Source: Halobellus clavatus (GTDB taxonomy: Archaea > Halobacteriota > Halobacteria > Halobacteriales > Haloferacaceae). Taken from it: a stretch of DNA of 64,000 bases. The stretch spans positions 62,001 to 126,000 of the forward strand of contig NZ_FNPB01000002.1 in assembly GCF_900107195.1 (NCBI RefSeq). The letters are read 5' to 3'. Below, in pieces: positions 26,687-45,127 of the stretch (positions are counted from its first letter, which is position 1; each line of letters starts with the position of its first letter). The position numbers and the translations under genes were made by a program. A model generated the notes under the pieces. That model did no database searches, had not been told where the DNA came from, and saw nothing but the letters and a program-made list of their open reading frames with translations.

Positions 26687-28063
26687 ATGGTAACGCTGTT
26701 GCAGGTCGATCCATCGGCGGTTGCATCGGGAATCAACAACGTCTGGGTCCTCGTCGTCTCGTTCCTGATCTTCTTCATGCAGCCGGGCTTCGCCCTGCTG
26801 GAGTCCGGGCAGGTCCGCGCGAAGAACGTCGGAAACGTGCTGATGAAGAATATGAGTGACTGGTTCCTCGGCGTCCTGATCTACTTCGTCGTCGGTTCGG
26901 GCGTCGTCAGCGTCATCGGAGCGCTCACCTCGGGTGGGAGCGTCGCCGGTGCGTTCGCGTACATCAGCGATCCGACCGCCTGGATCGGCTGGCTGTTCGG
27001 CGCGGTGTTCGCGATGACGGCGGCGACGATCGTCTCCGGCGCGGTCGCCGAACGGATGAACTTCAAGGCGTACGTGATCTTCACGATCCTGATGACGGCG
27101 TTCATCTACCCCGTCGTCGTCGGCTTCACCTGGGGCGGCGGCCTCCTGTCGAGTAGCGGCTTCATCGGCGCCGCGCTCGGTGCGGGGTACCTCGACTTCG
27201 CCGGTGCGACCGTGGTCCATATGTGCGGTGGCATTGCCGGCCTGGTCGCAGCGAAACTGGTCGGCGCCCGCAAGGGTCGCTACGACGAGAACGGCAACAG
27301 TCAGGCGATCCCGGGCCACTCGATGCTGCTGGCGGTTCTCGGCACGTTCATCCTGGCGTTCGGCTGGTACGGCTTCAACGTCGGCACGCAGGCGACGATC
27401 CTCGCGGTCGCCGACGACGGCAGCCTCACGTTCATGGGCGCCGCGCTGGGCCGTGTCGCGCTCGTGACGACCCTGGGAATGGGGGCTGGCGGCGCGATGG
27501 CGATGGTCACGTCCTCGTACTACCAGGGCAAGCCCGATCCGCTCTGGACGGCCAACGGGCTGCTCGCCGGGCTGGTCGCCGTGACCGGTGCGGTTCCGCA
27601 CGTCACGTGGTGGGGCGGCGCGCTGCTCGGCGGTCTGGGCGGCTTCCTGGTCCTGCCGGCGTTCCGCTTCACGGTCGACACGCTGAAAGTGGACGACGTC
27701 TGCGGCGTCTTCGCGGTCCACGGCGTCGCGGGCGCGGTCGGGACGGCGCTGATCCCGGTCTTCGCGGTCGGCGGCTTCGCAGTTAACCAGTTCGCGCTCC
27801 AGATCGTCGGCGTCCTGGTCATCGCGCTGTGGACGATCGTCGCCTCGGCTGTCGTGCTCGTCGCGCTCGACTCGATCGTCGGCCTGCGCGTCAGCGAGGA
27901 AGAAGAGAACGAAGGACTCGACGAGGGCGAACACGGCGTCGCCGTCTACCCCGAGTTCGTCCCCAACGAGACCCGCGAGGGGACGGTCGCCACCGACGGT
28001 GGGGACGTCCGCACTGACGGCGGCGTCTCGGTCGCAGAGACGGAGGTGACCGACGATGAGTGA
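26687..28063 (+). CDS. amt: Ammonium transporter, first copy
   Basis: 458-residue Amt/Rh channel for ammonium. Eleven hydrophobic segments, starting with an extracytosolic N-terminus rather than a signal peptide. Signatures: [19 protein letters not shown] (signature 1), [20 protein letters not shown] (quoted in part), [12 protein letters not shown] with the first pore His, FGWYGFNVG and [11 protein letters not shown] with the second pore His. The C-terminal tail of about 60 residues is acidic and ends at the glnK start; the genes overlap by 8 bases, coupling the channel to its PII regulator. Confidence 0.96.
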
Positions 28064-28406
28064 CGAGATCAAACTCGTAATGGCGTTCATCCGGCCGGAC
28101 AAGCTCAGCGACGTCAAACAGGCGCTCGCGGAAGTCGGCGCCCCCTCCCTGACGGTGACGAACGTCTCCGGACGGGGATCCCAGCCCGCGAAGAAGGGGC
28201 AGTGGCGCGGCGAAGAGTACACTGTCGACCTCCACCAGAAGGTGAAAGTCGAGTGTGTCGTCGCCGACATCCCTGCTGACGACGTCGCCGATGCGATCGT
28301 CGACGCCGCCAACACCGACGAGAAGGGCGACGGCAAGGTGTTCATCCTGCCGGTCGAATCGGCCTACCAGATCCGGACGGGCAAAACGGGGCCCGACGCG
28401 GTGTAG
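28056..28406 (+). CDS. glnK: Nitrogen regulatory protein PII (GlnK), first copy
   Basis: 116-residue PII protein that blocks Amt when nitrogen is plentiful by inserting its T-loop in the pore. T-loop [20 protein letters not shown] with the equivalent of Tyr51 at Tyr55, B-loop [12 protein letters not shown] near 89-100 and C-terminal [11 protein letters not shown]. Starts eight bases before the amt stop. About 90 percent identical to the second GlnK, counted by eye over 112 residues. Confidence 0.96.
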
Positions 28407-28840
28407 GGGGCCGCTCACCGGCGCTGCCGGTCTCGAGTGCCTCCATCCGGTGCTGTTTTTCTGTTCTCGTCTCGATGCCGTTTGCGTTGCTGTGACTGCT
28501 TGAGCTGTGCTGTTCTATTCAATTCTATTCTGTGCTATTCTGTGCTGCTCATCCGCGACTCCTCGAGCTGTGCTGCTCGTCCGCGACTTCTTGATCCCCG
28601 TTGTTTTGCCCGTTTGTGACCGCTCGATGACCCGGCGCTCGGGCGCACCGAGCGCGCGGCGACCCGCACGTCTCCCGACGCGAGACTCACTCGCGGTGCC
28701 CGACCGGTCACACGACTGTTGGAAAGTTAGGCAACACTTGTGTCCTTTTCCTCCCAAGTACGTCCTTATATTCTTTGTATCTCATAGTGTATTGTACGAA
28801 CGTTCTGAGACAAGCGAATTATTTGAAAAACCAAACGAAA
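28407..28840. other. Intergenic with low-complexity direct repeats
   Basis: A T5 tract at 28456-28460 is a likely terminator for amt1-glnK1. From about 28501 to 28600 the sequence is built of short related units (GAGCTGTGCTG, TTCTATTC, TTCTGTGCT, and GCTCRTCCGCGACT at 28546 and 28571). I see no reading frame of halophilic character. From 28730 the DNA becomes AT-rich toward amt2. Confidence 0.5.
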
Positions 28841-28850
28841 ATTATTATAT
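28841..28850 (+). promoter_or_regulatory. TATA box of amt2
   Basis: ATTATTATAT, about 113 nt before the amt2 ATG, inside an AT-rich island (about 28735-28860). The leader contains TCCAAGCCAC at 28924-28933, shared with the amt1 leader, 30 nt from the start codon. Confidence 0.5.
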
Positions 28851-28962
28851 CCTCTTGGGTTGGTAGAAACTATCGAGATTCGCGAACGAACCAACGCGAA
28901 TCGAGATCACAGATGTACGATCGTCCAAGCCACAACAGAGCACCACGCGTCGGTGGTATCGT

Positions 28963-30381
28963 ATGCTGAACACTGCACTGCAATCAGATCTCTCCGCCCT
29001 GGTTCAGGGCGTGAATATGATCTGGGTCCTCACGGTGACGTTCCTGATCTTCTTCATGCACGCCGGGTTCGCGATGCTCGAAGCGGGCCAGGTCCGCTCG
29101 AAGAACGTCGCGAACCAGCTGACGAAGAATCTCCTGACGTGGAGCGTCGGCGTCGTGATCTACTTCCTGGTCGGTGCGGCCATCTCGACGATCACCGGCG
29201 GCCTGACCGGCGGGGGTTCCTACGCCGTCGTCGACGCGTTCGCTGCCATCTATATGCCCGAGGCGGGCGCGGCGGCCGCCTGGGTGAACTGGCTGTTCGG
29301 GGCCGTGTTCGCGATGACGGCGGCGACGATCGTTTCCGGAGCCGTCGCCGGCCGCGCGAAACTCCGCGCGTACGTCAGCTACACCATCCTGCTGGCAGCC
29401 GTCATCTACCCAGTCATCGTCGGCTTCACCTGGGGCGGCGGCTTCCTCTCGTCGCTCGGATTCAAAGACTTCGCCGGCGGCGTGATCGTCCACGCGATGG
29501 GCGGTATCGCCGGTCTCACGGCAGCGTGGATCATCGGTCCGCGGATGAACCGCTTCAACGACGACGGCACCGCGAACGTGATCCCCGGTCACTCGCTGAC
29601 GTTCGCCGTTCTGGGAACCCTCATCCTGGCGTTCGGCTGGTACGGCTTCAACGTCGGTACCTCGGCCTCGCCGCTCGCGCTCGACGGGAGTGCCGTCGTC
29701 CTGGGTTCGTTCGCGACGGTCGGCCGCGTCGCGCTCGTGACGACGCTCGGGATGGCTGCGGGCGCAATCGGGGCCGCCGGCGTCGCGATCTACAAAACGG
29801 GCAAGGTCGACACGCTCTACGTCGCTAACGGCCTCCTCGCCGGTCTGGTCGGCATCACCTCGATCGCCGACGCCATCGTCTGGCCGGGCGCCATCGCCGT
29901 CGGCATCCTGGCGGGCGCACAGCTCCCGGTCGTCTTCGAGTTCGTCGAGAAGCGCCTGCACATCGACGACGTCTGTGCGGTCTTCCCGGTCCACGGCTCC
30001 GCCGGGATCCTCGGCGCGCTCGCGTACCCGTTCGTGGCGACGAGCTTCTGGAGCGGAAGCGCCTCGTTCGTCGGCCTGCTCGTTCCGCAGGTCGTCGGCG
30101 TCGCGGTCATCGCTGTGTGGACGTTCGCCGCCACCGCGCTCGTCTTCGGCGCGCTGCGGGCGATCGGCCAGGCGCGGGTCTCGCGCCAGCACGAGGTCGA
30201 AGGGCTCGACACCTCCGAACACGGCGTCGATACCTACCCCGAGTTCGGCGGTCCGGACGAGTCGAGTGCGCGCGTCGACGGCGGTACGATCCGCTCCGAC
30301 GGCGGCGTCGCCTCGAACACGTTCGAGCCGGCCTCGACCAGCGAAACTGATTCCGAGGCTCGCACGGAGGATGAACTATGA
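28963..30381 (+). CDS. amt: Ammonium transporter, second copy
   Basis: 472-residue Amt paralogue of the upstream gene, with the same landmarks: [59 protein letters not shown] and [13 protein letters not shown]. It has a longer loop with [20 protein letters not shown] (about 86-105) absent from Amt1, and a different acidic C-terminal tail (ending SEARTEDEL). The stop overlaps the second glnK by four bases (ATGA). The two copies are divergent enough that they may differ in affinity. Confidence 0.96.
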
Positions 30382-30740
30382 GTGATGCAACAGACGGCGA
30401 GATCAAACTCGTGATGGGGTTCGTCCGACCAGACAAACTCAGCGACGTCAAACAGGCGCTCGCGGAAGTGGGGGCCCCCTCGCTGACGGTCACCGACGTC
30501 TCCGGACGCGGGTCGCAACCCGCGAAGAAGGGGCAGTGGCGCGGCGAGGAGTACACCGTCGATCTCCATCAGAAGGTGAAGGTCGAGTGTATCGTCGCCG
30601 ACATCCCTGCTGACGACGTCGTCGAGGCCATCGCCGACGCGGCCCACACCGGCGAGAAGGGCGACGGCAAGGTGTTCGTCCTCCCGGTCGAATCGGCCTA
30701 CCAGATCCGGACGGGCAAGACCGGGCCCGACGCGGTGTAG
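30378..30740 (+). CDS. glnK: Nitrogen regulatory protein PII (GlnK), second copy
   Basis: 120-residue PII protein, four residues longer at the N-terminus than the first ([15 protein letters not shown]). T-loop identical to the first copy including the modifiable Tyr; differences fall mainly in the helix after residue 75 ([15 protein letters not shown]). Probable dedicated partner of the second Amt, though mixed trimers with the other GlnK are plausible given identity. Confidence 0.96.
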
Positions 30741-33251: not shown

Positions 33252-34136
33252 TTAGAGATATGAACACGTATTTTCAAGCGTTCCGATACTTTCGACGCTG
33301 ACAGTGACCTCGTCGCCATCTTCGAGGAGCACGGGCGGTTCACGGTAGACGCCGACGCCTGGCGGGGTCCCAGTGAAGAGCAGGTCGCCCGGTTCGAGCG
33401 TGAAGGCCTGACTGCAGAACGACACCAGTTCGTCGATGCCGAAGATCAGATTCGACGTCGTCGATTCTTGCAGGCGCTCGCCGTTCACTTCGGTCCAGAT
33501 GTCGAGGGCTTCGGGATCCTCGACCTCGTCGGTGGTGACGAGTTCCGGCCCGATGGGGGCGAAGGTATCGAGGCTCTTGCCGCGGACCCACTGCCCGTCG
33601 CCGTGCTGGAGGTCCCGCGCGGAGACGTCGTTGCCAACGAGGTAGCCTGCCACGTGATCGAGCGCCGCTTCCTCGTCGACGTGCCGCGCCTCCTCACCGA
33701 TGACGACGACCAGTTCCGCCTCGTAGTCGACCTTCTGGGTGAGGTCTGGGTCCCACTCGATCGTTCCGCCGGGACCGTTCACCGAGGTCGGAAACTTCGA
33801 GAACAGGACCGGTTCGTCGGGGATGGGATTGTCGCCCTCCTCGGCGTGATCCACGTAATTGAGACCGACACAGACGACTTTCGACGGATCGCTCACCGGC
33901 GCGCTCGCTGCGACGTCGGCGACGTCGTAGACGCCGACGCCCGTCTCTGTGGCGTACTCAACGGCCAGTTCGGCCTTCGCCTGCCACTGCCACTCGGCGA
34001 GGAGTTGACCGGTCGCTCGCGGGAGATCGAGCCCCGCGGCCGCGCCGGCTTCCGGGAGGCTGACGACTGTCTCGTCGTCGGTTTTCACGCCGCACCACGG
34101 CTGTTCGTCGTCGACACTGTATTGTCCGATTCTCAT
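33252..34136 (-). CDS. Fumarylacetoacetate hydrolase (FAH) family protein
   Basis: 294 residues. C-terminal FAH fold with metal ligands visible in VDYEAELVVVIG (about 138-149), GYLVGNDVSARDLQ and the RGKSLDTFAPIGPEL block; KVVCVGLNYVDHAEE is the family's substrate loop. Members cleave or decarboxylate 2-oxo acids, for example 2-keto-3-deoxy sugar acids or homoprotocatechuate products. Downstream of the amidohydrolase on the same strand with a 54-base gap, so probably co-transcribed. Exact substrate unknown. Confidence 0.9.
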   Translation of the reverse strand: MRIGQYSVDDEQPWCGVKTDDETVVSLPEAGAAAGLDLPRATGQLLAEWQWQAKAELAVEYATETGVGVYDVADVAASAPVSDPSKVVCVGLNYVDHAEEGDNPIPDEPVLFSKFPTSVNGPGGTIEWDPDLTQKVDYEAELVVVIGEEARHVDEEAALDHVAGYLVGNDVSARDLQHGDGQWVRGKSLDTFAPIGPELVTTDEVEDPEALDIWTEVNGERLQESTTSNLIFGIDELVSFCSQAFTLEPGDLLFTGTPPGVGVYREPPVLLEDGDEVTVSVESIGTLENTCSYL

Positions 34137-34190: not shown

Positions 34191-35546
34191 TCAGATCTCA
34201 ATGCCGGCCTCGTCGAGGAGTCGGTGTCCGGATTCGATGAACCGATCGAACTCTTCCTCGAGGCGGGGGTTCTCCAGTTGTCCCCCGCGCTTTTTGACTT
34301 CGCCGTCGACGAGGACCGTGTCGATGTGCGAGGGATCCGACTGGAAGACGACCGTCTGGATCGGCGAGTGCGCGGGTGCGGTCATAAAGTCGGTCTCGTC
34401 GATCAGCACGATGTCGGCGCGCTTGCCCGGCGTGAGCGTCCCGATCTCGTCCTCCAACCCGAGCGCCCTCGCGCCTTCGATCGTCGCCATCTCGAGCGTC
34501 TCCCGGCAGTTCATACTGACCTCCGAGACCTCCTCGTCGCCTTCGAGGACTTTTTGATTGTCGAACATCCGCTGGAGTTGCATCCCGACCCGCATCTGGG
34601 TGCCCATATCGCCGCTGATGCTCGAACAGACGTCGACGCCCCACGTCGGTCGGCCGCCGGCCTCGAGCACCTTGTCGGTCACGGGGATGCCGTGGCCCAT
34701 CTGCATCTCGACCTCCGGCGTCGCCGAGAAGGAGACGCCCTGCTCGACCGCGTAGTCGATGTCCTCCTGCGCGAAGTGATTCGCGTGCGCGACGTTCACG
34801 TCGGGGCCGAGCATGTCTTCGATGGCGCCGAACCCGTTGTACTCCTCGCCGTAGACCGAGGAGCCCCAGAGCGCGGCACCCATATGGACTGTCGCGAGGG
34901 CGTCCATCTCTCGCGCCAACTCCAGGTCGCCGCGGGCGGTCTCGTCGACACAGAAGTCCGGCCCCCGGAGTCCGATTCCCAGACTGAGCAGGTCGTCGTC
35001 GCGGATCTTCTCCTCGTGGAGCGTACGGATGTTCTGTTCGGGCAGACCGACGTCGCTCTCGAACCACCACTTCGCCGCGTCGTCACCCGGTGGGCCGTAG
35101 GTGTACACCGCGCGCAACCCGGCGTCTTTCAGCGCGTCGATGGCCCGCTCTCCGTGTTCGAGCGAGTTGGGATACGACCAGTCAAGGGCCGTGGTCGTCC
35201 CCGTATAGAGTTTCTCCAGCCCGCCGAAGAGGCCACCGAGGTACATATCCTCGGGCTGATAGAGCCCGGTGATGTTCCCGAGCATGTGATCGAAGTACTC
35301 GCCCATGAGCGACCAGTCGCCGGCGATGCCTCTGACCTGCGTCTGTGCGAGGTGGATGTGTGAATCGACGAACCCCGGTACGACGATGTGATCCGACGCG
35401 TCGATGATCTCCGCGTTCGAGGCCGACAGCCCCCGACCGATCTCGACGATTTCGCCGTCCTCGATCAGGATGTCCGCATCCTCTTGCTCCCCGATTTCTG
35501 GATCGAGAGATACAACCGTCCCATTCTGGATGATTTTTCGTGCCAT
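34191..35546 (-). CDS. Deaminase/chlorohydrolase-type amidohydrolase
   Basis: 451-residue cytosolic metal hydrolase of the ATZ/TRZ family. The HxH motif VDSHIHLAQTQ at about 61-71, VHMGAALWG-type and VAHANHFAQEDI metal-ligand regions, and a late WGVDVCSSIS with the Asp. It ends in a composite-sandwich tail (LTPGKRADIVLIDETDF). Family activities are cytosine, guanine, SAH or melamine-type deamination. Start ATG 35546 (MARKIIQNGTVVSLDPEIG); upstream residues are not protein-like. Divergent from the TetR-type gene across 108 bases, a plausible regulated pair. Confidence 0.9.
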   Translation of the reverse strand: MARKIIQNGTVVSLDPEIGEQEDADILIEDGEIVEIGRGLSASNAEIIDASDHIVVPGFVDSHIHLAQTQVRGIAGDWSLMGEYFDHMLGNITGLYQPEDMYLGGLFGGLEKLYTGTTTALDWSYPNSLEHGERAIDALKDAGLRAVYTYGPPGDDAAKWWFESDVGLPEQNIRTLHEEKIRDDDLLSLGIGLRGPDFCVDETARGDLELAREMDALATVHMGAALWGSSVYGEEYNGFGAIEDMLGPDVNVAHANHFAQEDIDYAVEQGVSFSATPEVEMQMGHGIPVTDKVLEAGGRPTWGVDVCSSISGDMGTQMRVGMQLQRMFDNQKVLEGDEEVSEVSMNCRETLEMATIEGARALGLEDEIGTLTPGKRADIVLIDETDFMTAPAHSPIQTVVFQSDPSHIDTVLVDGEVKKRGGQLENPRLEEEFDRFIESGHRLLDEAGIEI

Positions 35547-35654
35547 CCTACGTGTGCTGTTTGACCAAGAGCGTAAAAGTTTACTGCCCAGTAAAGACCC
35601 GACACTTCCCGCCACCGCCAGTCGTCTTATGACCCTGAGTGTCGAAATAGCACT

Positions 35655-36275
35655 ATGGCCACACCCGACGACGAGATCGCTGCGACGGACACCCGCGAAG
35701 CGATTATGGAGGCGACGTTCCGAGCGCTGAAGCGACGCGGGTACTCGGATCTGCGGTTACGGGACATCGGCGAAGAAATGTCGATGACCCGACAGGTAAT
35801 CCACTACCACTTCGACGGCAAGCGGGATCTGATGTCGTCGTTTCTGGAGCACATCATCGATCAGTACGAGGGCAGCGTCGACGTGGGATCCGACGCGGAT
35901 CCGCGAACCGAACTCGACGCCCGTATCGATCAGTGCCTGTTCGGCCCCGACTTCGAGGAGTTCTCTCACTGGGACCGGATGAAGGTCTATCACGAACTGT
36001 TCGCGCACGCCCGGAATGACGAGGAGCACCGCGAGACGTTCACCGAACACTACGACCGGATCCGCGGGAGTATCGTCGAGGTGATCGAAGCCGGCATCGA
36101 ACAGGGCGTGTTCCGCGACGTCGACCCCGTTCGGGTCGGACAGCTCATCACGGATATGATCCACGTCGCCCGCGAGCGCCGACTCGCTCTGGGTCACGAG
36201 GACGCCCCCGAAGAGATGCGGGCGTCGATCGACGATTTCGTCGTGGAGCGGCTCTGCATCGACGAGGAGTCGTAG
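35655..36275 (+). CDS. TetR/AcrR family regulator
   Basis: 206 residues. N-terminal TetR helix-turn-helix: AIMEATFRALKRRGYSDLRL then RDIGEEMSMTRQVIHYHFDG at about residues 38-57, the classic sequence in which HYHF ends the recognition helix. C-terminal all-helical ligand domain (YRETFTEHYDRIRGSIVEVI-type helices, and QLITDMIHVARERRLALGHE). Divergent from the amidohydrolase-FAH genes; it probably controls them or the catabolic cluster downstream. Ligand unknown. Confidence 0.92.
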   Translation: MATPDDEIAATDTREAIMEATFRALKRRGYSDLRLRDIGEEMSMTRQVIHYHFDGKRDLMSSFLEHIIDQYEGSVDVGSDADPRTELDARIDQCLFGPDFEEFSHWDRMKVYHELFAHARNDEEHRETFTEHYDRIRGSIVEVIEAGIEQGVFRDVDPVRVGQLITDMIHVARERRLALGHEDAPEEMRASIDDFVVERLCIDEES

Positions 36276-36320: not shown

Positions 36321-36689
36321 TCACTCCGCTGTGGCCACCGGGGTCAACCGCGGATGGGTCTGCTCGTCCCCCTCGCGCAGGGTGTGCTCCCCCGAAAACG
36401 TCACTCGGTCCCCGACGCTTACCCCCTCGCCGTCGAGTTGCGCGATCACCTGCACGTCGTCGAAGGCGACCAACCCGAGACGGTTCGGGCTGCGGACGTC
36501 TTCGGGCGTCACGTCGACCCGCGTCGACGCGAGCAGTTCGCCGACGCCGAGTTCGTCGGTCGTGACCTCCTCCTCGCCGCAGTCCGGACAGCGTCCCCGG
36601 GTGTAGTACCAGCGGTGACCGCACTGTTCACAGCGGAACGCCAGGTCGGTCCGCATTCGGTCGTCCGCGTTGGCTCCATCCGTCGTCAT
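36321..36689 (-). CDS. DUF35 zinc-ribbon OB-fold protein, thiolase partner
   Basis: 122 residues. Zinc ribbon CEQCGHRWYYTRGRCPDCGE at about 20-39, then an OB fold (ELLASTRVDVTPEDV, LVAFDDVQVIAQLDGEGV, GDRVTFSGEHTL). DUF35 proteins form complexes with thiolases, for example feeding acetoacetyl-CoA to HMG-CoA synthase. The ATG overlaps the thiolase stop by four bases, the standard arrangement. Last gene of the minus-strand operon. Confidence 0.92.
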   Translation of the reverse strand: MTTDGANADDRMRTDLAFRCEQCGHRWYYTRGRCPDCGEEEVTTDELGVGELLASTRVDVTPEDVRSPNRLGLVAFDDVQVIAQLDGEGVSVGDRVTFSGEHTLREGDEQTHPRLTPVATAE

Positions 36690-37819
36690 CCGCTGAGCAC
36701 CGTACACACGCTGTTGTTTCCGAACCCGGCAACGTTGATCGCCAGGCCCGTCTCCGGTTCACCCGGGACCTGCCGCGCCGTCGGTGCGTCCCCGCGAAAC
36801 TGCCAGACCAGTTCGACGATCTGCGAGACGCCGGTCGCGCCGAGCGGGTGGCCCCTGGCCTTGAGTCCCCCGCCGGGATTCACCGCCAGTTGCCCGTCGA
36901 GCGCCGTCTCACCGGCCTGCGTCGCCCGCCAGGCCGTACCGGCGTCGTAGAACCCGAGTTCTTCGAGTTCGAGCAGTTCCAGAATCGTGAACGCGTCGTG
37001 GATGCACGCGACGTCGACGTCGTCGCGGTCACACGCTGTCCGCGCGAACGCGCGCTCGCCCGCCGTCCGCACGCTCGTAATCTTCAGCGGGTCCGGCCGC
37101 GCCGCGACGGCGTGCGTCCCGGTCGCACCGGCGACGCCCTCCACGCTGACGTCGCCCTCGCGCGAGAGCACCACAGCAGCGGCTCCGTCCGTCATCGAAC
37201 AGCAGTCGAACAGCCGCAGCGGCGCGGCGATCACCGGCGACTCAAGCGCCTCCTCGGCGGTCACCGACGTCCGGAACTGCGCGAACTGATTGTGCACTGC
37301 GTTCTCGTGATTCTTCACCGCGACGGTCGCGAGCGCCTCTCGCGGTACGTCGTATCGATCGAGATACGCGTCGGCCGCGATGCCCGCGAACGAGGGTAGC
37401 GTCAACCCCTGCGCGTACTCCCGCTCGTGAACGAGCCGGCTGATCGACTCGGTCACGGCGGCCGTCTCGCCGCCGGACATCTTCTCGACGCCGACGACGA
37501 GCGCCACGTCCGCGCCGCCGGCGATGGCCTCCACGCCGCGATGGATTGCGCTCGCGCCGCTGGCGCTCGTGTTCTCGACCCGGTCGGCGCGGGCCCCTTC
37601 GACCCCGAGGCGCGAGACCAGCGCGTTCGCGATCCCGGCCTGGGCGTTCAACTCGCCGGCGAGCGCGTTCCCGACATGGAGCGACGCGACGTCCGACGGT
37701 TCACAGGCCGCATCGGAGAGCGCTCGCTCGGCCGCGAGACGGCCCAGTTCCAGGATCGATCGATCGGCCTCGCTCTCGAACGCGGTCATTCCGACCCCCG
37801 AGATCTCGACGTCTCTCAC
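36686..37819 (-). CDS. Thiolase-like protein with Ser replacing the nucleophilic Cys
   Basis: 377-residue SCP2/acetyl-CoA acetyltransferase-type thiolase. The conserved loop reads VENTSASGASAIHRG (residues 81-95); the position normally holding the acyl-accepting Cys of CASG is Ser85. The other catalytic elements are kept: HDAFT (about 270) and NPGGGLKARGHPLGATG (about 315-331). Without Cys normal thiolysis is unlikely unless Ser works or the reaction is different (lyase or scaffold). Seven bases separate it from the CoA-transferase upstream, and it overlaps the DUF35 gene. Homology certain, activity not. Confidence 0.85.
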   Translation of the reverse strand: MRDVEISGVGMTAFESEADRSILELGRLAAERALSDAACEPSDVASLHVGNALAGELNAQAGIANALVSRLGVEGARADRVENTSASGASAIHRGVEAIAGGADVALVVGVEKMSGGETAAVTESISRLVHEREYAQGLTLPSFAGIAADAYLDRYDVPREALATVAVKNHENAVHNQFAQFRTSVTAEEALESPVIAAPLRLFDCCSMTDGAAAVVLSREGDVSVEGVAGATGTHAVAARPDPLKITSVRTAGERAFARTACDRDDVDVACIHDAFTILELLELEELGFYDAGTAWRATQAGETALDGQLAVNPGGGLKARGHPLGATGVSQIVELVWQFRGDAPTARQVPGEPETGLAINVAGFGNNSVCTVLSG

Positions 37820-37825
37820 GGCGAA

Positions 37826-39046
37826 TCACTCCGCCCAGTCGTCCGATTCGCCGAAGACGCCGGCCGCTTCCATCTCGTCAAGTTCGGCCTCGGAGTAGCC
37901 CAACTCCGCGAACACCGATCGGTTGTGCTCGCCGAGCAGCGGCGGCGGCAACTCGAATCCGCTCTCGGATCCCTCGAACTTCAGGGGGTGTTCGATCACG
38001 GGAATCTCTCCTAATTCCGGGTGGTCGATCTCCGAAATCGTCCCACGGGCGTCGATCTGCGGGTTGTTCAACGCCTGTTCGACGTCGTAGACGGGACCCG
38101 CGGGCACGCCGCCTTCCTCGGCGATGGTCTCGACCCACTCGTCGGTCGTCCGCTCCGCGAGCGTCTCCTCGATCTCGCGTTCCAGCGCGTCGACGTTCTC
38201 GACCCGGTCGGCGTTCGTCGCGAACCGGTCGTCGTCGACGAGTTCGGGCCGATCGAGCGCCTCGCACAGTTCACCCCACAGCTTCTCGTTGAGGATGCAG
38301 ATGTTGATGTAGCTGTCTTTCGTCTCGAAGGTCTGATACGGCGCGAGGACCGGGTCTTTCGTCCCCATCCGTTCTGGTTCCTCGTCCGCGAAGACTTGGC
38401 CGGCCTGCTTTGTCAGCCACGGTAACGTCGATTCGAGCATCCCCAGATCGATGTACTCTCCCTCGCCGGTCAGCGCCCGCCTGTACAGCGCCGTCGACAC
38501 GCCGAAGGCGGCCCACATCGCCGTGATGAGGTCCGTCATCGGGAGCCCGACCTTCACCGGCTGTCGACCCTCCTCGCCCGTGACGCTCATAATCCCGCTC
38601 AGTCCCTGGATGAGGAGGTCGTATCCGGTCCGTTCGCGCCAGGGTCCCGTCTGTCCGAAGGCGGACACGGCGAGATAGATGATATCGTCGTTCTCCGCCT
38701 TGATCGATTCGTAGTCCACGTCGAGGCGCTCGGCGACACCCGGGCGGAAGTTCTGGATGAAGACGTCCGCCTCCTCGACGAGGTCGTAGAGCGCCGCCGT
38801 GGCTTCGGGGTTCTTCAGATCGAGTTCGACGCTCCGCTTCCCGTAGTTCACCGTCCAGTAGTACGGCGACTCGCCCTCGATGAACGGCGGTCCCGAGTGA
38901 CGGATCGCGTCGCCGTAGTCGGGCTGTTCGATCTTGATTACCTCTGCGCCCTGGTTCGCGAGCATCGCGGAGCAGAACCCTCCGGTGACGAACGTGGAGA
39001 GGTCTACCACCGTGATGCCGTCGAGTATTTTGGTTTCGTCAGTCAT
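37826..39046 (-). CDS. Class III CoA-transferase (CaiB/BaiF)
   Basis: 406-residue family III CoA-transferase, which moves CoA between an acyl-CoA and a free acid. Landmarks: DGITVVDLSTFVTGGFCSAM (N-terminal CoA-binding region), IKIEQPDYGDAIRHSGPPF, DVFIQNFRPGVAERL, then GLPMTDLITAMWAAFGV in which Asp172 aligns with the catalytic Asp169 of formyl-CoA transferase, and TGEGEYIDLGMLEST. It should activate the compound imported by the Liv-type system encoded upstream, or pass CoA to it. Substrate unknown. Confidence 0.92.
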   Translation of the reverse strand: MTDETKILDGITVVDLSTFVTGGFCSAMLANQGAEVIKIEQPDYGDAIRHSGPPFIEGESPYYWTVNYGKRSVELDLKNPEATAALYDLVEEADVFIQNFRPGVAERLDVDYESIKAENDDIIYLAVSAFGQTGPWRERTGYDLLIQGLSGIMSVTGEEGRQPVKVGLPMTDLITAMWAAFGVSTALYRRALTGEGEYIDLGMLESTLPWLTKQAGQVFADEEPERMGTKDPVLAPYQTFETKDSYINICILNEKLWGELCEALDRPELVDDDRFATNADRVENVDALEREIEETLAERTTDEWVETIAEEGGVPAGPVYDVEQALNNPQIDARGTISEIDHPELGEIPVIEHPLKFEGSESGFELPPPLLGEHNRSVFAELGYSEAELDEMEAAGVFGESDDWAE

Positions 39047-39236: not shown

Positions 39237-39980
39237 TCAGTCGAACGCCTCGACGTCCGGGTTGGTGCCGACGCCGAGATACTGCTGTTGGGTCTCCGTG
39301 TCGTCGCGGAGTTCGGCCACCGTGCCCTCGTAGACGTTCCGCCCCTGTTCGAGGATGAAGACCCGATCGGCCACCTCGAAGATGGTGTTCAGGTTCTGTT
39401 CGACCACGAGGATCGGGATGTCCTGTTCTTGGATCCGCTCGATGGCGTCGATCACGTCCTCGACGATCTGCGGCGCGAGTCCCTCCGTCGGCTCGTCGAG
39501 GAGCAGGAGTTCGGTCTTCCCCCGCAGTGCCCGCCCGATGGCGAGCATCTGCTGTTCGCCGCCGCTCAGCTTCGAGGCCTTCAGCTCCTTGCGCTCGTCC
39601 AGCCGAGGCATCCACTCGAAGATCTCTTCGATCGTCATGATCCCCGAGGGCTGTTTGATCCCGCCCATCCGGAGGTTCTCCTCGACGGTGAGGTCGGGGA
39701 ACACGGCCCGCTCCTCGACCACGTAACTGATCCCGAGATTGCTGATCTCGTGATCCGAGAGCGCGGTGATGTCCTGCCCTCTGAACTCGATCTTCCCCGA
39801 CCGCGGCTTGATGACGCCCGTGATCGATCGCAGCGTCGTCGTCTTGCCGGCCCCGTTGCGACCCAGGAGGCCGACGACTTCGCCCTTCCCGACGGTCAGC
39901 GAGACGTCCTCGAGGACGAGTCCCGAACCGTACGACGAGGAGATCTCCTCCACCGCGAGGATCGTCTCTGTCTCACTCAC
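39237..39980 (-). CDS. livF: Liv-type ABC transporter ATPase LivF
   Basis: 247-residue ATP-binding subunit. Walker A GRNGAGKTTTLRS at about 39-51, Q-loop region VVEERAVFPDLTVEENL, signature LSGGEQQMLAIGRAL at about 138, Walker B LLLLDEPTEGLAP and H-loop. Start GTG 39980 overlaps the livG stop (GTGAGTGA), giving translational coupling. Of the two ATPases this one resembles LivF by length and by ISYVVEERAVFPDLT. Confidence 0.94.
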   Translation of the reverse strand: MSETETILAVEEISSSYGSGLVLEDVSLTVGKGEVVGLLGRNGAGKTTTLRSITGVIKPRSGKIEFRGQDITALSDHEISNLGISYVVEERAVFPDLTVEENLRMGGIKQPSGIMTIEEIFEWMPRLDERKELKASKLSGGEQQMLAIGRALRGKTELLLLDEPTEGLAPQIVEDVIDAIERIQEQDIPILVVEQNLNTIFEVADRVFILEQGRNVYEGTVAELRDDTETQQQYLGVGTNPDVEAFD

Positions 39981-40737
39981 TGGCCTCACCTCGCTTCGTC
40001 CCAATGTAGGCCTCCTGGACGCGTTCGTTCTGCTGGATCTCCTCGGGACTGCCTTCGGCGATGATCTGCCCACGGTTCAGCACCGAGATTCGATCGGAAA
40101 TCCGCATCACGATCCCGATATCGTGTTCGATCAGAATCAGTTTGATGTCCCGTTCATCGACGAGCCGACGGATGAGGCGGACCATCTGCACCGACTCCTG
40201 CTTTCCCATCCCCGCGGTCGGTTCGTCGAGGAGGATGAGATCCGGTTCGACGGCGAGCGCCAGCCCGATCTCCAGTTTCCGCTGGTCGCCGTGGCTGAGG
40301 GCGTCCGCGCGAACGTCCGCGAGATCGACCAGTTCGATGTCTTCCAACAACTGTTCGGTCTTCTCGAGCGTCGTCGTGAGCGACTCCGAATCGACCCACA
40401 GCGAGTTTCGCTTCTCGTCTAACGCCTGCGTCGCGATCTGGAGGTTCTCTTTGACGGTCAGCCCCTCGAACAGGTCCGCGATCTGGAACGACCGGCTGAT
40501 CCCCTTCTGGACGATCTTCCGCGGCGGCAGTCCCGCGATGTCTTCGTCCTTGTATCGGATCTCACCTCCCGTCGGGTTCAAATACCCCGTCAACAGGTGA
40601 AACAGGGTGGACTTGCCGGCCCCGTTCGGTCCGATGATCGAGTGAATCCCCTCCCGATCTATCGATAGATTGACATCGTCGACCGCCTGCAGTTCGCCGA
40701 ACCGTTTGTGTAGATTCGTGGTTTCGAGCATACTCAT
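39973..40737 (-). CDS. livG: Liv-type ABC transporter ATPase LivG
   Basis: 254-residue ATPase. Walker A GPNGAGKSTLFHLLTG at about 37-52, then the LivG-specific PRKIVQKGISRSFQIADLFE block, signature LSHGDQRKLEIGLALA and Walker B LILLDEPTAGMG. Overlaps the fused permease gene by four bases. Pairs with LivF on the cytosolic face of the membrane permease. Confidence 0.94.
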   Translation of the reverse strand: MSMLETTNLHKRFGELQAVDDVNLSIDREGIHSIIGPNGAGKSTLFHLLTGYLNPTGGEIRYKDEDIAGLPPRKIVQKGISRSFQIADLFEGLTVKENLQIATQALDEKRNSLWVDSESLTTTLEKTEQLLEDIELVDLADVRADALSHGDQRKLEIGLALAVEPDLILLDEPTAGMGKQESVQMVRLIRRLVDERDIKLILIEHDIGIVMRISDRISVLNRGQIIAEGSPEEIQQNERVQEAYIGTKRGEASE

Positions 40738-42695
40738 TCCTGCACTGCCTCCTCTTCGTCTCTGGGTGCCACTGTCTCCGGGTTGGCCGTCCCTCCGGCC
40801 GGATCGTCGTCACCCAGTCGATCCTCGAAGATGTAGTAGAAGCTGACGAGCCCTCGCGGCGCGAAGAGCACGATGAAGATCAGCACTGCCCCCAGGATCA
40901 GCCGCCAGTAGTCGAAGTAGATCGTCAGTGCCTGATCCAGGCCCAGCAGGACCGCACCGCCGATGATGGGTCCATAGAGCGTCCCCACACCCCCGAGGAT
41001 GACGGCGAACAGCGCATCGCCCGAGACGATCCAGTACAGCGTGTCCGGACTGGTGAACGTCTGTCGGGTAGTGAACAGCGCCCCGGCGACGCCGCCGACT
41101 GCGCCGGAGATGGCGAACACCCGGCGTTTCGCCTTGTTGGTGTCGTAGCCGAGGAACTTCGCGCGGCGTTCGCTCTCGCGGATCGCTTTCAGCTGCAGCC
41201 CGAACGGCGAGTCCATGATCCGCTTCACCAGGTAGTAGCACAGCACCAGCAGCGAGAGTGCGAGGTAGTAGAACACGAACGTGTTCGACAGGTCGAGCGC
41301 CCCGAGTAACGTGACGTTGTCGATCGCCAGGCCGTTACTGCCGCCGGTGAATCCGGACCACGACAGCGCCAGTTGGTACAGCATCTGTCCGACGGCGAAG
41401 GTGACGACCGCGAAGTACAGCCCCGAGAGCCGCGCCGAGACCGCCCCGACGAGCCACGCGACGACCGCCGCGACAGTGACCGCCGCGGCCAGCCCCAAAA
41501 CGAACGAACTCGTGAAGTGAACCGTGAGCAGCGCCACGGCGTAACTCCCGATCCCGTAGAACGCCGCGTGTCCGAACGAGATCAGCCCGGTGTAGCCGGT
41601 CACGGTGTCCAGGCTGAGCGCCAGGATACCCCAGACGAACATCAGCGCGATCAGGCCCATCCCGTACTGACTCAGCGAGAACCCCTCGAACGCCAGCGGA
41701 ATGAGGAGCAACAGTCCCAACACCACCAGAACCCGTCTGTCGGTCAGGTTGAGCGGATCGATGGTTCGGTCGTAGGAGAGTTTCGCCGCCTGTTCGCGGA
41801 TCTCGTAGGCACCTAGGATCCCCTCGGGTTTGAGAATCAGGACGCCGAACAGGAGTAGATAGAGGACGAACCCCGAGATCTCGGAGGCGAAGGTGTTCGT
41901 GATCGTCTGAATGAAGCCGACGATCACGCCGGCGACGATCGAACCGCCGAAGCTTCCCAGGCCGCCGATGGCGACGACGACGAACGCGATGATGAGCGCG
42001 TCGTCGCCCATCGCGGGGTTCACGCTCAGGAACGGGGCCGCCAGCGCACCGGCGATCGCCGCGAGGAACGTGCCGAGGCCGAAGATGAGGGTGTAGTACC
42101 GACTGATATTCACACCCATCAGGCGCACGGTCTGCTTGTCCTGCGCACCGCCCCGGACGATGAGCCCGAAGTCGGAGTACCGAAAGAGCGCCCAGGTGAG
42201 AAACGCGATACACGCGCCTGCGGCGATCGTGAAGAGTCGGTACCGCGGATAGATGACCGGCCCGATCGACACCGCACCGCCGAGCAGGTCGGGCGTCGGG
42301 AAGAACTTCGTTCCGGTGCCCCACACGAACTCCACGACGTCTGTCACGATCAGCAGGACGCCGAACGTGATCAACACGTGATACAGCGGCGAACGGTCGT
42401 AGATGTAGTGGAGCGTAAGCCGTTCGATTCCGATACCCAACCCGGCAACGACGAGCGGTCCCAGGATGAGCGCGATGGCGAAGCTCCCCGTCGCGTCGAC
42501 GACAGTGAACGCCAGGTACGCCCCGAGCATATAGAACACGCCGTGGGCGAAGTTGAGGACGTCGGTGATTCCGAAGATGACGGCGAACCCCGACGCGATC
42601 AGGATGTACAGCATACTCAGTGCGAGGCCGTTCAGAATCAGAAACGCCAACTGATTCGTGCTCATTCCAAGTACCGCGAGCGAAACAGGTTCCAT
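40734..42695 (-). CDS. Fused LivH-LivM permease
   Basis: 653 residues joining the two membrane subunits usually encoded separately. Residues about 1-300 match LivH (LYILIASGFAVIFGITDVLNF, FSVNPAMGDD-type and IAFVVVAIGGLGSFGGSIVA). Residues about 325-625 match LivM (ILALSLDTVTGYTGLISFGHA, KAIRESERRAKFLGYDTNKA and AVILGGVGTLYGPIIGGAV). The join is a short charged linker (LSYDRTIDPLNLTDRR, about 300-320) with no internal stop or obvious start. C-terminal tail acidic. A single chain would fix the H:M stoichiometry. Confidence 0.92.
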   Translation of the reverse strand: MEPVSLAVLGMSTNQLAFLILNGLALSMLYILIASGFAVIFGITDVLNFAHGVFYMLGAYLAFTVVDATGSFAIALILGPLVVAGLGIGIERLTLHYIYDRSPLYHVLITFGVLLIVTDVVEFVWGTGTKFFPTPDLLGGAVSIGPVIYPRYRLFTIAAGACIAFLTWALFRYSDFGLIVRGGAQDKQTVRLMGVNISRYYTLIFGLGTFLAAIAGALAAPFLSVNPAMGDDALIIAFVVVAIGGLGSFGGSIVAGVIVGFIQTITNTFASEISGFVLYLLLFGVLILKPEGILGAYEIREQAAKLSYDRTIDPLNLTDRRVLVVLGLLLLIPLAFEGFSLSQYGMGLIALMFVWGILALSLDTVTGYTGLISFGHAAFYGIGSYAVALLTVHFTSSFVLGLAAAVTVAAVVAWLVGAVSARLSGLYFAVVTFAVGQMLYQLALSWSGFTGGSNGLAIDNVTLLGALDLSNTFVFYYLALSLLVLCYYLVKRIMDSPFGLQLKAIRESERRAKFLGYDTNKAKRRVFAISGAVGGVAGALFTTRQTFTSPDTLYWIVSGDALFAVILGGVGTLYGPIIGGAVLLGLDQALTIYFDYWRLILGAVLIFIVLFAPRGLVSFYYIFEDRLGDDDPAGGTANPETVAPRDEEEAVQE

Positions 42696-42722: not shown

Positions 42723-44042
42723 TTACAGCGACGGCAGGTCGCACCCGGTCTCTTCGCAGGTACGGGTGATGTCGTCGGCCGTCCGGGTCGCGACGATCTC
42801 CTGACCGGGCCAGTCGTACTGGTCCGGCTCGGTGATCCGTCCCACGAACCCGTCACGGACGGCCTGGTGGTCGCACTCCCGCATCGTCGTCGATCCCATC
42901 GGCTCGTCGCTCTCGAGTCCTTCCATCGCCGAAACCACCGCCGAGGTCTCCAGCGACCCGGCGCTCTCGGCAGCCTGCGCGTACAGGCGGAGGCTGCTCC
43001 ACATCACGAGCGCGAAGTCGGTCGGCGGCTCGTCGAACGTCGACGTGTACCGATCGACCAGCATCTGGTTCGCCTCCGACTCGTAGGTCGGCTCGTACCT
43101 GATCGTGGTGTAGGTGCCGACGGCGGAACTGCCCGCACCCTGTCGGAGCGGCAGGTAGGTGTTGGTGGTGCTCATGATGTCCTGCCCGAGTTCGAACTGC
43201 TCGGCCTGACTGAGGAAGTTGACGGCGTCGGAGCCGCTGAACCCCTGGAGCACCCAGTCGGCGTCCGACGACTGGATCTGACTGATGACCGCGGAGTAAT
43301 CCGACGTCCCGAGGGGAGTCTGCGTCTCGTTGACGATGGTGTAATCCAGCCCCGAGGCCTCGAACGCGTCCTTCCACGTCCGTGCGATAGACTGGCCGAA
43401 GGCGTAGTCCGCGATGTGGATCCAGACGCGCGATCCGAGATTCTCGAGCGCCCACTCCGCGCCCGAGCGGGCGATCTGCGCGTCGGAGTACTGATATCTG
43501 AACGTCGTCGGCAGGCACTCCTCGCCGGTGATCTCCTCGGGTCCACCGTACGCGAAGTACGGGACGCCGACGTCGTAGGCGTAGTCCGCCACCGAGAGGT
43601 TGACCGCCCCGGAGACGCCGCCGATCAACACGTCGACGTCGTTGGTCTCGACGTGTCGCCGGGCCATCTCCCGGCCCGTACTCGGATCGCCCTCGGTGTC
43701 CTCGACGAACCGCCGGACGTTGTTCCCCAGAATGCCGCCGAGGTCCTCGTTGACGTGCGCCGTCGCTACCTCGGAACCGCGCTGTTGCGCCTCGCCCAGT
43801 GCCGCGAACGGGCCGCTTGTCGGATGGAGGAAGCCCACCCGGACCTCGTCGTCGCTCCCACTGCTGGACGTCGTGGTCGTCTCGTCCATCGACGCTTCAG
43901 TCTCCGTGTCCTCGCCACCGGAGTCGCCCTCATCGCCGCCGTCACCACCAGAACTCGAACATCCCGCGAGACCGACCAACCCCGCACCCACGCCGGCCTG
44001 TTTCAGTACTGTCCGTCGGCTGAGCCAGTCGCTATCTGACAT
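42723..44042 (-). CDS. Liv-type substrate-binding lipoprotein
   Basis: 439-residue type I periplasmic-binding fold protein. N-terminus has a Tat motif (SRRTVLKQAG) followed by a hydrophobic stretch and a lipobox LVGLAGCSSSGG, so it is exported folded and lipid-anchored, the haloarchaeal norm. An acidic linker (about 35-65) precedes the binding domain (VRVGFLHPTSGPFAALGEAQ; VLIGGVSGAVNLSVADYAYD; DWVLQGFSGSDAVNFLSQAE). Ligand class for this family includes branched-chain amino acids, amides, urea and aromatic acids. First component of the Liv block; start ATG 44042. Confidence 0.93.
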   Translation of the reverse strand: MSDSDWLSRRTVLKQAGVGAGLVGLAGCSSSGGDGGDEGDSGGEDTETEASMDETTTTSSSGSDDEVRVGFLHPTSGPFAALGEAQQRGSEVATAHVNEDLGGILGNNVRRFVEDTEGDPSTGREMARRHVETNDVDVLIGGVSGAVNLSVADYAYDVGVPYFAYGGPEEITGEECLPTTFRYQYSDAQIARSGAEWALENLGSRVWIHIADYAFGQSIARTWKDAFEASGLDYTIVNETQTPLGTSDYSAVISQIQSSDADWVLQGFSGSDAVNFLSQAEQFELGQDIMSTTNTYLPLRQGAGSSAVGTYTTIRYEPTYESEANQMLVDRYTSTFDEPPTDFALVMWSSLRLYAQAAESAGSLETSAVVSAMEGLESDEPMGSTTMRECDHQAVRDGFVGRITEPDQYDWPGQEIVATRTADDITRTCEETGCDLPSL

Positions 44043-44129
44043 ACTATTCACGTTCCAACACTCTATAATAAATCTTTGTGCTAAATTCCCAAACGGCACG
44101 GGGCTCGTGCGGACACGACGCCGACTTCC

Positions 44130-45050
44130 TCACTCGGTGAACATGATGTCGGTGAGGAACTGCGCCGATTTACTGACCCCCTCGTGGAGTGGCTGGGGGG
44201 TGTTCAACTGCTGGATGCTCACCGGGCCGTCGTACCCGACGAGGTCGAGCGTCGAGATGATGTCCCGCCACTCGGACTCGCCGTGGCCGTAGCCGACCGC
44301 GCAGAAGGCCCAGGACCGATCGAGTCGGTCGTCGAGCGGGGTCATATCCCACGTCCCCTGCAACTTCTTTTGCTCGGGGTACTCGACGACGTCGGAGGTC
44401 TCGAAGTGCATAATCGCGTCGTGCTCCGCCAGATAGCGGATCGAGGCCACCGGGTCGATCTCCTGAAGCCAGAGGTGACCGGGGTCGACGTACGCGCCGA
44501 TCCGCTCGCTCGTCGCTTCCCGCAACCGGACCAGCGTCGGCGGGCTGTTCACCAGCATATTGACGTGAATCTCCAGCGCGACGTCGACGTCGTGGTCGTC
44601 GGCGAAGGCCCCCAGTTCGTTCCAGTACGGAATCGCGACCTCTTCCCACTGGTACTCGTACTGTTCGTGCTGCTCGCCGGGCGGGATGGGTGAGACGATC
44701 CAGTTCGGCGTCTCGTCGTTCGGGCCGCCGCCCGGCAGCCCCGAGAACGCCGAGACCGTCTCGACGCCGAGTTGCTCCGCCAGCCTGATCGTATCCCTGA
44801 GCAGTTCGTCGGCCTCGGCAGCCTGGTCCTCGTCAGGATGGAGCATATTGTGGCCGGTCGCGCCGAGCATCGAGAGTTCGATGTCGTGGTCCGCGAACGT
44901 CTCCAGCAACTCTGCCTGCGCGTCGGGGTCGTCGAGATACTCGTCGGGGTCACAGCGCCAGTCGACGCTCTCGACGCCGAGGCCGCTGAGAAACGCGAGT
45001 GTCTCCTCGATCGGTTCCTCGAACGGCAGCGTCTGTACGCTCAGATGCAT
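44130..45050 (-). CDS. Xylose-isomerase-like TIM-barrel protein
   Basis: 306 residues of the sugar phosphate isomerase/epimerase superfamily (AP endonuclease 2 fold). Metal-site features: LEIHVNMLVNSPPTLVRLRE with Glu, AYVDPGHLWLQE with Asp/His and HFETSDVVEYP; GHNMLHPDEDQ gives an earlier His. Members isomerise or epimerise sugars or inositols. Begins MHLSVQTLPFEEPIEETLAF; ATG 45050. It is 87 bases upstream of the binding-protein gene on the same strand and probably heads the operon. A 39-bp tandem repeat lies just upstream of it. Confidence 0.85.
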   Translation of the reverse strand: MHLSVQTLPFEEPIEETLAFLSGLGVESVDWRCDPDEYLDDPDAQAELLETFADHDIELSMLGATGHNMLHPDEDQAAEADELLRDTIRLAEQLGVETVSAFSGLPGGGPNDETPNWIVSPIPPGEQHEQYEYQWEEVAIPYWNELGAFADDHDVDVALEIHVNMLVNSPPTLVRLREATSERIGAYVDPGHLWLQEIDPVASIRYLAEHDAIMHFETSDVVEYPEQKKLQGTWDMTPLDDRLDRSWAFCAVGYGHGESEWRDIISTLDLVGYDGPVSIQQLNTPQPLHEGVSKSAQFLTDIMFTE

Positions 45051-45127
45051 ACTGGCCGGTACGCTGGAACCCAAATAAGTGTACCTCCGGCCTCGGTCGG
45101 TTCTCCCCGCCGACACTGGGGTCACGT

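Follow-up and report, generated by a model that had tools for sequence, protein, structure and literature searches.

The best-described relatives of the protein considered here are BktB and PhaA of Haloferax mediterranei, which reviews of Hou et al. 2013 (PMC7137286, PMC9049629, PMC11205408) summarize as genetically essential, two-subunit beta-ketothiolases with OB-fold beta subunits and a "Ser-His-His" triad; in the accounts given there, the reviews disagree over which gene pair of this species bears the name BktB. Plasmid pHME505 of H. mediterranei carries a pair (L176), likely HFX_6004/6003, that encodes a 383-aa alpha subunit and a 120-aa zinc-ribbon/OB beta subunit from genes overlapping by 4 nt, with an orc1/cdc6 gene nearby. 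Nearly every haloarchaeal genome encodes a paralog of the protein reported here, at 44-48% identity, that also has Ser in place of the nucleophilic Cys, with the motifs QTSSSGG, HDMFT, and FGNC. In PhlC, which is also partnered by a DUF35 protein, activity is abolished by exchanging Cys88 for Ser, and Ser is therefore not freely exchangeable for Cys in the thiolase fold. A literature search for Cys-to-Ser mutants of classical thiolases gave nothing useful.

The window analyzed here, a 64,000-nt stretch of the Halobellus clavatus genome, encodes a thiolase-like protein related to these systems within the following set of genes.

33252..34136, minus strand, fumarylacetoacetate-hydrolase-fold (FAA-fold) enzyme (PF01557, 4.8e-75; 21 ortholog loci)
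34191..35615, minus strand, amidohydrolase of the PRK08204 subfamily (472 bits against a cut-off of 391; 15 ortholog loci)
35655..36275, plus strand, TetR-family regulator facing the thiolase unit (PF00440, 5.9e-9; 11 ortholog loci)
36321..36689, minus strand, DUF35/OB-fold beta subunit of 122 aa with a CxxC...CxxC zinc ribbon (zf-ChsH2 at 3e-4, below the Pfam cut-off; 6htj at 3.1e-6)
36686..37819, minus strand, thiolase-like alpha subunit of SCP2 type, 377 aa, intact, GTG start, with Ser85 at the CxS cysteine, His274 in HDAF, and His324 in GHP (PF00108, 2.6e-38; PF22691, 1.2e-37)
37826..39046, minus strand, family III (CaiB-type) CoA-transferase of 406 aa, directly upstream of the thiolase gene (PF02515, 2.2e-124)
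39237..40073, minus strand, ABC transporter ATPase of branched-chain amino acid (Liv) type (from sequence; same set in L152 and L168)
39973..40737, minus strand, second Liv-type ABC transporter ATPase (from sequence and locus comparison)
40734..42695, minus strand, Liv-type permease of 653 aa (Halosolutus ortholog annotated 'ABC transporter permease')
42723..44099, minus strand, substrate-binding lipoprotein of the importer (PF13458, 2.1e-78)
44130..45125, minus strand, sugar-phosphate isomerase/epimerase-like TIM barrel (Halosolutus ortholog annotation; weak iolE match)

The CxS loop of the window thiolase reads RVENTSASGAS, with HDAFT and GHPLGATG kept downstream, and in the alignment Ser85 stands where three thiolases of known structure, 6esq, 7yvy, and 6hsj, have their nucleophilic Cys. 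SCP2 thiolases have another catalytic Cys, in HDCF; the window protein reads HDAF there and so has neither cysteine of the classical/SCP2 Cys-dependent type. No replacement Cys was found in the alignment at the CxS, HDCF, or CxG positions, which are occupied by Ser85, Ala276, and Asn362. Cys206, Cys207, Cys272, and Cys372 are invariant among the orthologs, yet they lie off the catalytic positions in the alignment, and the proposal that another Cys serves as the active-site residue was rejected on these grounds; many SCP2-type proteins, among them ones that have the normal Cys, carry the CC preceding DGA (Cys206/207). Both Pfam domains match at full length and above the gathering score, and the score against the NCBIfam thiolase subfamily PRK06064 is 359.3, below its curated cut-off of 420. 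An AlphaFold2 model, for which 33 sequences from the window and related loci were used, has a pLDDT of 95, and the folds closest to it are 6et9/6esq (TM 0.94-0.95), 4yzo (TM ~0.86), and 7yvy. The initial annotation had placed Ser at the nucleophilic position with the other catalytic blocks intact and held that a different Cys at the active site would remove the interest of the gene; the alignment bears out the placement and yields no such Cys.

The same annotation raised the question of whether the Ser is fixed. In a first alignment of 29 orthologs with 58-77% identity to the window thiolase, Ser85, His274, Asp275, Ala276, Phe277, His324, and Phe366-Gly-Asn-Asn369 are invariant in all 29. The single exception at position 85 in a wider set is Asn, in a Halalkalicoccus ortholog (L175:11938-13146) that keeps all remaining motifs and would be a useful natural variant for the question of the nucleophile. 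Comparison with the nearest ortholog, L005, indicates purifying selection (dN/dS ~0.24; dN 0.151, dS 0.625). A reading of the gene as decaying was rejected, given its intact ORF, this selection, and its conserved motifs, in agreement with the initial view that it is kept within a pathway. Orthologs of the window clade were detected at E 1e-115 in 57 of the 391 haloarchaeal genomes searched, and the window thiolase is therefore an accessory trait.

The organization of the locus is likewise as initially described, with the stop of the thiolase gene overlapping the DUF35 gene and a CoA-transferase adjacent. The TGA of the thiolase gene shares bases with the ATG of the DUF35 gene (ATGA, 36686-36689), and 6 nt separate the end of the CoA-transferase ORF from the thiolase start. 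The DUF35 gene directly follows the thiolase gene in 51 of 51 ortholog loci, with an NTGA-type start/stop overlap in 43 of them. A family III CoA-transferase gene lies directly upstream in 30 of the 51, and 43 have one within the ~9 kb compared. The nearest NCBIfam models for the CoA-transferase are those for succinate-glutarate, oxalate, and mesaconate CoA-transferases, with all scores below cut-off. Other frequent companions across the ortholog loci are the FAA-fold hydrolase, the PRK08204 amidohydrolase, TetR or IclR regulators, and a TatD hydrolase. The Liv-type importer and the TIM-barrel protein are common to the window, L152, and L168, and importers at other ortholog loci are NitT-like, TRAP-TAXI, TctABC, or SLC23; exchangeable importers around a constant core are what would be expected of a module that breaks down a variety of carboxylates. 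In the window, the LivH- and LivM-like permease halves are fused in the single 653-aa ORF at 40734-42695. Two tandem pairs of ammonium-transporter-like and GlnK-like genes are found near the operon at 26687-30740, and such genes also lie beside the operon in L086.

On balance, with a probability of about 0.52, the alpha subunit and its DUF35 partner would form a Ser-type alpha/beta thiolase performing CoA-dependent retro-Claisen C-C cleavage on the product of the CoA-transferase. The observations behind a thiolase reading are the fold, Ser85, both His residues, the overlapping DUF35 gene, the conservation of the operon, and purifying selection, and thiolase-like C-C cleavage by the pair is given most weight because the sister family is reported to be active. 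In such a pathway, the importer may take up a carboxylate or its precursor, which the amidohydrolase and/or the FAA-fold hydrolase would process before the CoA-transferase activates it as a CoA thioester. With DUF35 closing over it, the alpha subunit would then break the C-C bond next to the thioester, presumably in the retro-Claisen direction, with His274 and His324 providing the oxyanion hole and acid/base functions. Ser85 would either hold the acyl group as an oxyester or just aid the attack by CoA. Three points speak against this assignment, namely the inactive Cys88-to-Ser form of PhlC, the absence of beta-oxidation genes from the window operon, and the existence of relatives with Pro or Thr at position 85 and both His residues, which fit a mechanism without an acyl-enzyme.

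These relatives emerged from a phylogeny of 72 proteins, with which a reduced tree agrees. In the 72-protein tree, the window clade (100/100) is the sister of a clade of BktB-type proteins plus 4yzo, with a joining branch of 97/84, and both are nested in a larger clade (98/94) in which no member has Cys at position 85. The residue there is Ser or Asn in haloarchaea, Pro in Hadesarchaea, Hodarchaea, Anaerolineae, and Clostridium, and Thr in Rokubacteria and one member of the Thermoproteota; both catalytic His residues are kept in the deeper Pro85 and Thr85 relatives. A thiolase-like protein of Thermoplasmata (L068:3354-4511) has Asp at the Cys position and is unplaced in the tree, and joining it to the Cys-less clade was not rejected by an AU test (p 0.50). 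The Pro85 proteins, counting one with Thr there, are 43-46% identical to the window thiolase and share with it HDAF, GHP, FGNN, and a DUF35 neighbor, but they are coupled to a protein of about 230 aa, in operons with FdrA/AllG or acyl-CoA synthetases. This neighbor (218-233 aa; L064:5312-6013, L055:5312-6004, L053:5136-5792, and other loci) is encoded close to every Pro85 gene that was inspected, in many cases with overlapping reading frames, and the haloarchaeal loci lack it; it has no match in Pfam, NCBIfam, or PDB, and by eye its RGLRIGA stretch looks similar to GNAT. The gene order in Clostridium is FdrA, AllG, cyclase, the 230-aa protein, Cys-less thiolase, DUF35, xanthine-dehydrogenase-like subunits, and uracil permease, the last scoring above its NCBIfam cut-off, and the arrangement in Anaerolineae is similar (L064, L065, L067, L055). 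The Clostridium cluster looks like an undescribed route for N-heterocycle degradation.

The simplest history is a single loss of Cys, after which the position changed among several residues, not all of which can act as nucleophiles. Because other members of the clade have Pro or Thr, Ser85 may be a replacement rather than a retained nucleophile; either archaea recruited Ser anew, or the Cys-less clade works without an acyl-enzyme. A tentative generalization, which we hold as possible but do not favor, is that this archaeal-bacterial clade of DUF35-partnered thiolase-fold proteins lost the nucleophilic Cys once (it is now Ser, Asn, Pro, or Thr), forms no acyl-enzyme, and, within catabolic operons that often serve nucleobases, relies on two histidines to cleave C-C bonds in CoA esters or to decarboxylate them. 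If so, the haloarchaeal Ser would not be a nucleophile, and the published Ser-His-His triad would need to be re-read. With position 85 varying among Ser, Asn, Thr, and Pro and both His residues constant, the clade offers a clean natural test of the need for a nucleophile in thiolases.

Catalysis without a covalent intermediate is also the basis of an unlikely alternative modeled on the steroid side-chain aldolases Ltp2-ChsH2(DUF35) and Sal-Shy, in which the Cys-less fold would split a 3-hydroxyacyl-CoA into an acyl-CoA and an aldehyde or ketone, with His274 as the base instead of Tyr. Like the window pair, these aldolases combine a thiolase fold that has lost the Cys nucleophile with a DUF35 partner, and the Pro and Thr residues of the relatives at position 85 favor non-covalent catalysis. 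In Ltp2 and Sal, however, Gly replaces the Cys and YDHF/YDCY supplies a catalytic Tyr, where the window protein has Ser85 and the His of HDAF, and the GHP His, kept here, is reshaped in Ltp2. The window thiolase does not group with Ltp2, as 6ok1, 4u4e, and the own-genome paralog L004 form a distant branch of their own, and membership in the Ltp2/Sal group was rejected. That paralog (L004 / L098:8994-10169) has Gly in place of the Cys, reads YDSF, groups with Ltp2 and 4u4e, and adjoins enoyl-CoA-hydratase-like and acyl-CoA-dehydrogenase-like genes; it is a candidate aldolase-type protein.

KSQ domains carry out decarboxylation with the Cys replaced. A comparable site in the window protein, with the Cys gone and two His residues, might decarboxylate malonyl- or methylmalonyl-CoA supplied by the CoA-transferase, for example in pyrimidine ring breakdown, and by our own inference, uracil could be oxidized to ureido-malonate and, with release of carbamoyl phosphate, converted to malonyl-CoA. 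Several haloarchaeal orthologs lie beside genes for SLC23 nucleobase permeases, MoeA, Mo-hydroxylase subunits, hydantoinase, carbamoylase, or urease, the Clostridium Pro85 genes sit between FdrA, AllG, a cyclase-family hydrolase, and the xanthine-dehydrogenase-like set with its uracil permease, and TbSLP, which has no Cys, weakly decarboxylates malonyl-CoA. Nevertheless, the window operon contains none of these nucleobase genes, no decarboxylase is known from the clade, and the Cys-less CtSal does not act on malonyl-CoA in this way; a literature search linking such thiolase clusters to uracil or barbiturate breakdown found nothing relevant. We consider decarboxylation quite improbable for the window protein. 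The loss of both catalytic Cys residues would also suit a non-catalytic thiolase fold that binds CoA esters as a scaffold for the CoA-transferase or DUF35, but the conservation of both His residues, HDAF, GHPLGATG, and FGNN, the purifying selection on the gene, and the reported activity of the Ser-type sister family make this very hard to credit.

The interpretation in the initial annotation is supported in part. The Ser is fixed, no substitute Cys stands at either catalytic Cys position, and the gene is maintained in a pathway-like operon with DUF35 and a CoA-transferase, but the idea that the Ser is odd for haloarchaea or points to a non-thiolase reaction is not supported, since the Ser-His-His enzymes BktB and PhaA of haloarchaea are reported as beta-ketothiolases and the matching L176 alpha subunit, from the sister clade, has Ser at the same position and is 45% identical to the window protein. 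As the annotation had itself proposed that ordinary thiolase activity would remove the interest of the gene, the activity reported for the haloarchaeal Ser type removes much of it. What remains of that interest is mechanistic, in that Ser85 may not be a real acyl carrier, given Pro and Thr at this position in deeper relatives.

Compared with known systems, the best fold match, the acetoacetyl-CoA thiolase 6et9/6esq, shares the DUF35 partner, but it has a Cys nucleophile and HDCF, both missing from the window protein, and works with an HMG-CoA synthase that is absent from the window system. The closest solved sequence, ST0096 of Sulfolobus tokodaii (PDB 4yzo; 35-36% identity), likewise has Ser at the Cys position and keeps HDMAT and GHP but, unlike the window protein, falls with the BktB-type proteins, at the end of a long branch; the literature on it that we found is just a structural comparison, with no described operon or activity. 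With BktB and PhaA, the window system shares overlapping genes for a thiolase alpha and an OB-fold (DUF35) beta subunit, Ser in place of the CxS Cys together with the HDxF and GHP His residues, and a haloarchaeal host. It differs in falling in a sister clade rather than within the BktB/PhaA clade (45% identity), in having HDAF and FGNN rather than HDMF and FGNC, in its occurrence in a minority of haloarchaeal genomes rather than nearly all, and in its association with a CoA-transferase, which is not found beside the BktB-type genes inspected. What had appeared an oddity thus becomes a defined family, in which Ser-type thiolases are standard in haloarchaea and a second, catabolic branch is coupled to a CoA-transferase; haloarchaeal thiolases of Ser type with a DUF35 partner were already known, and the window gene is a new catabolic branch of this known type.
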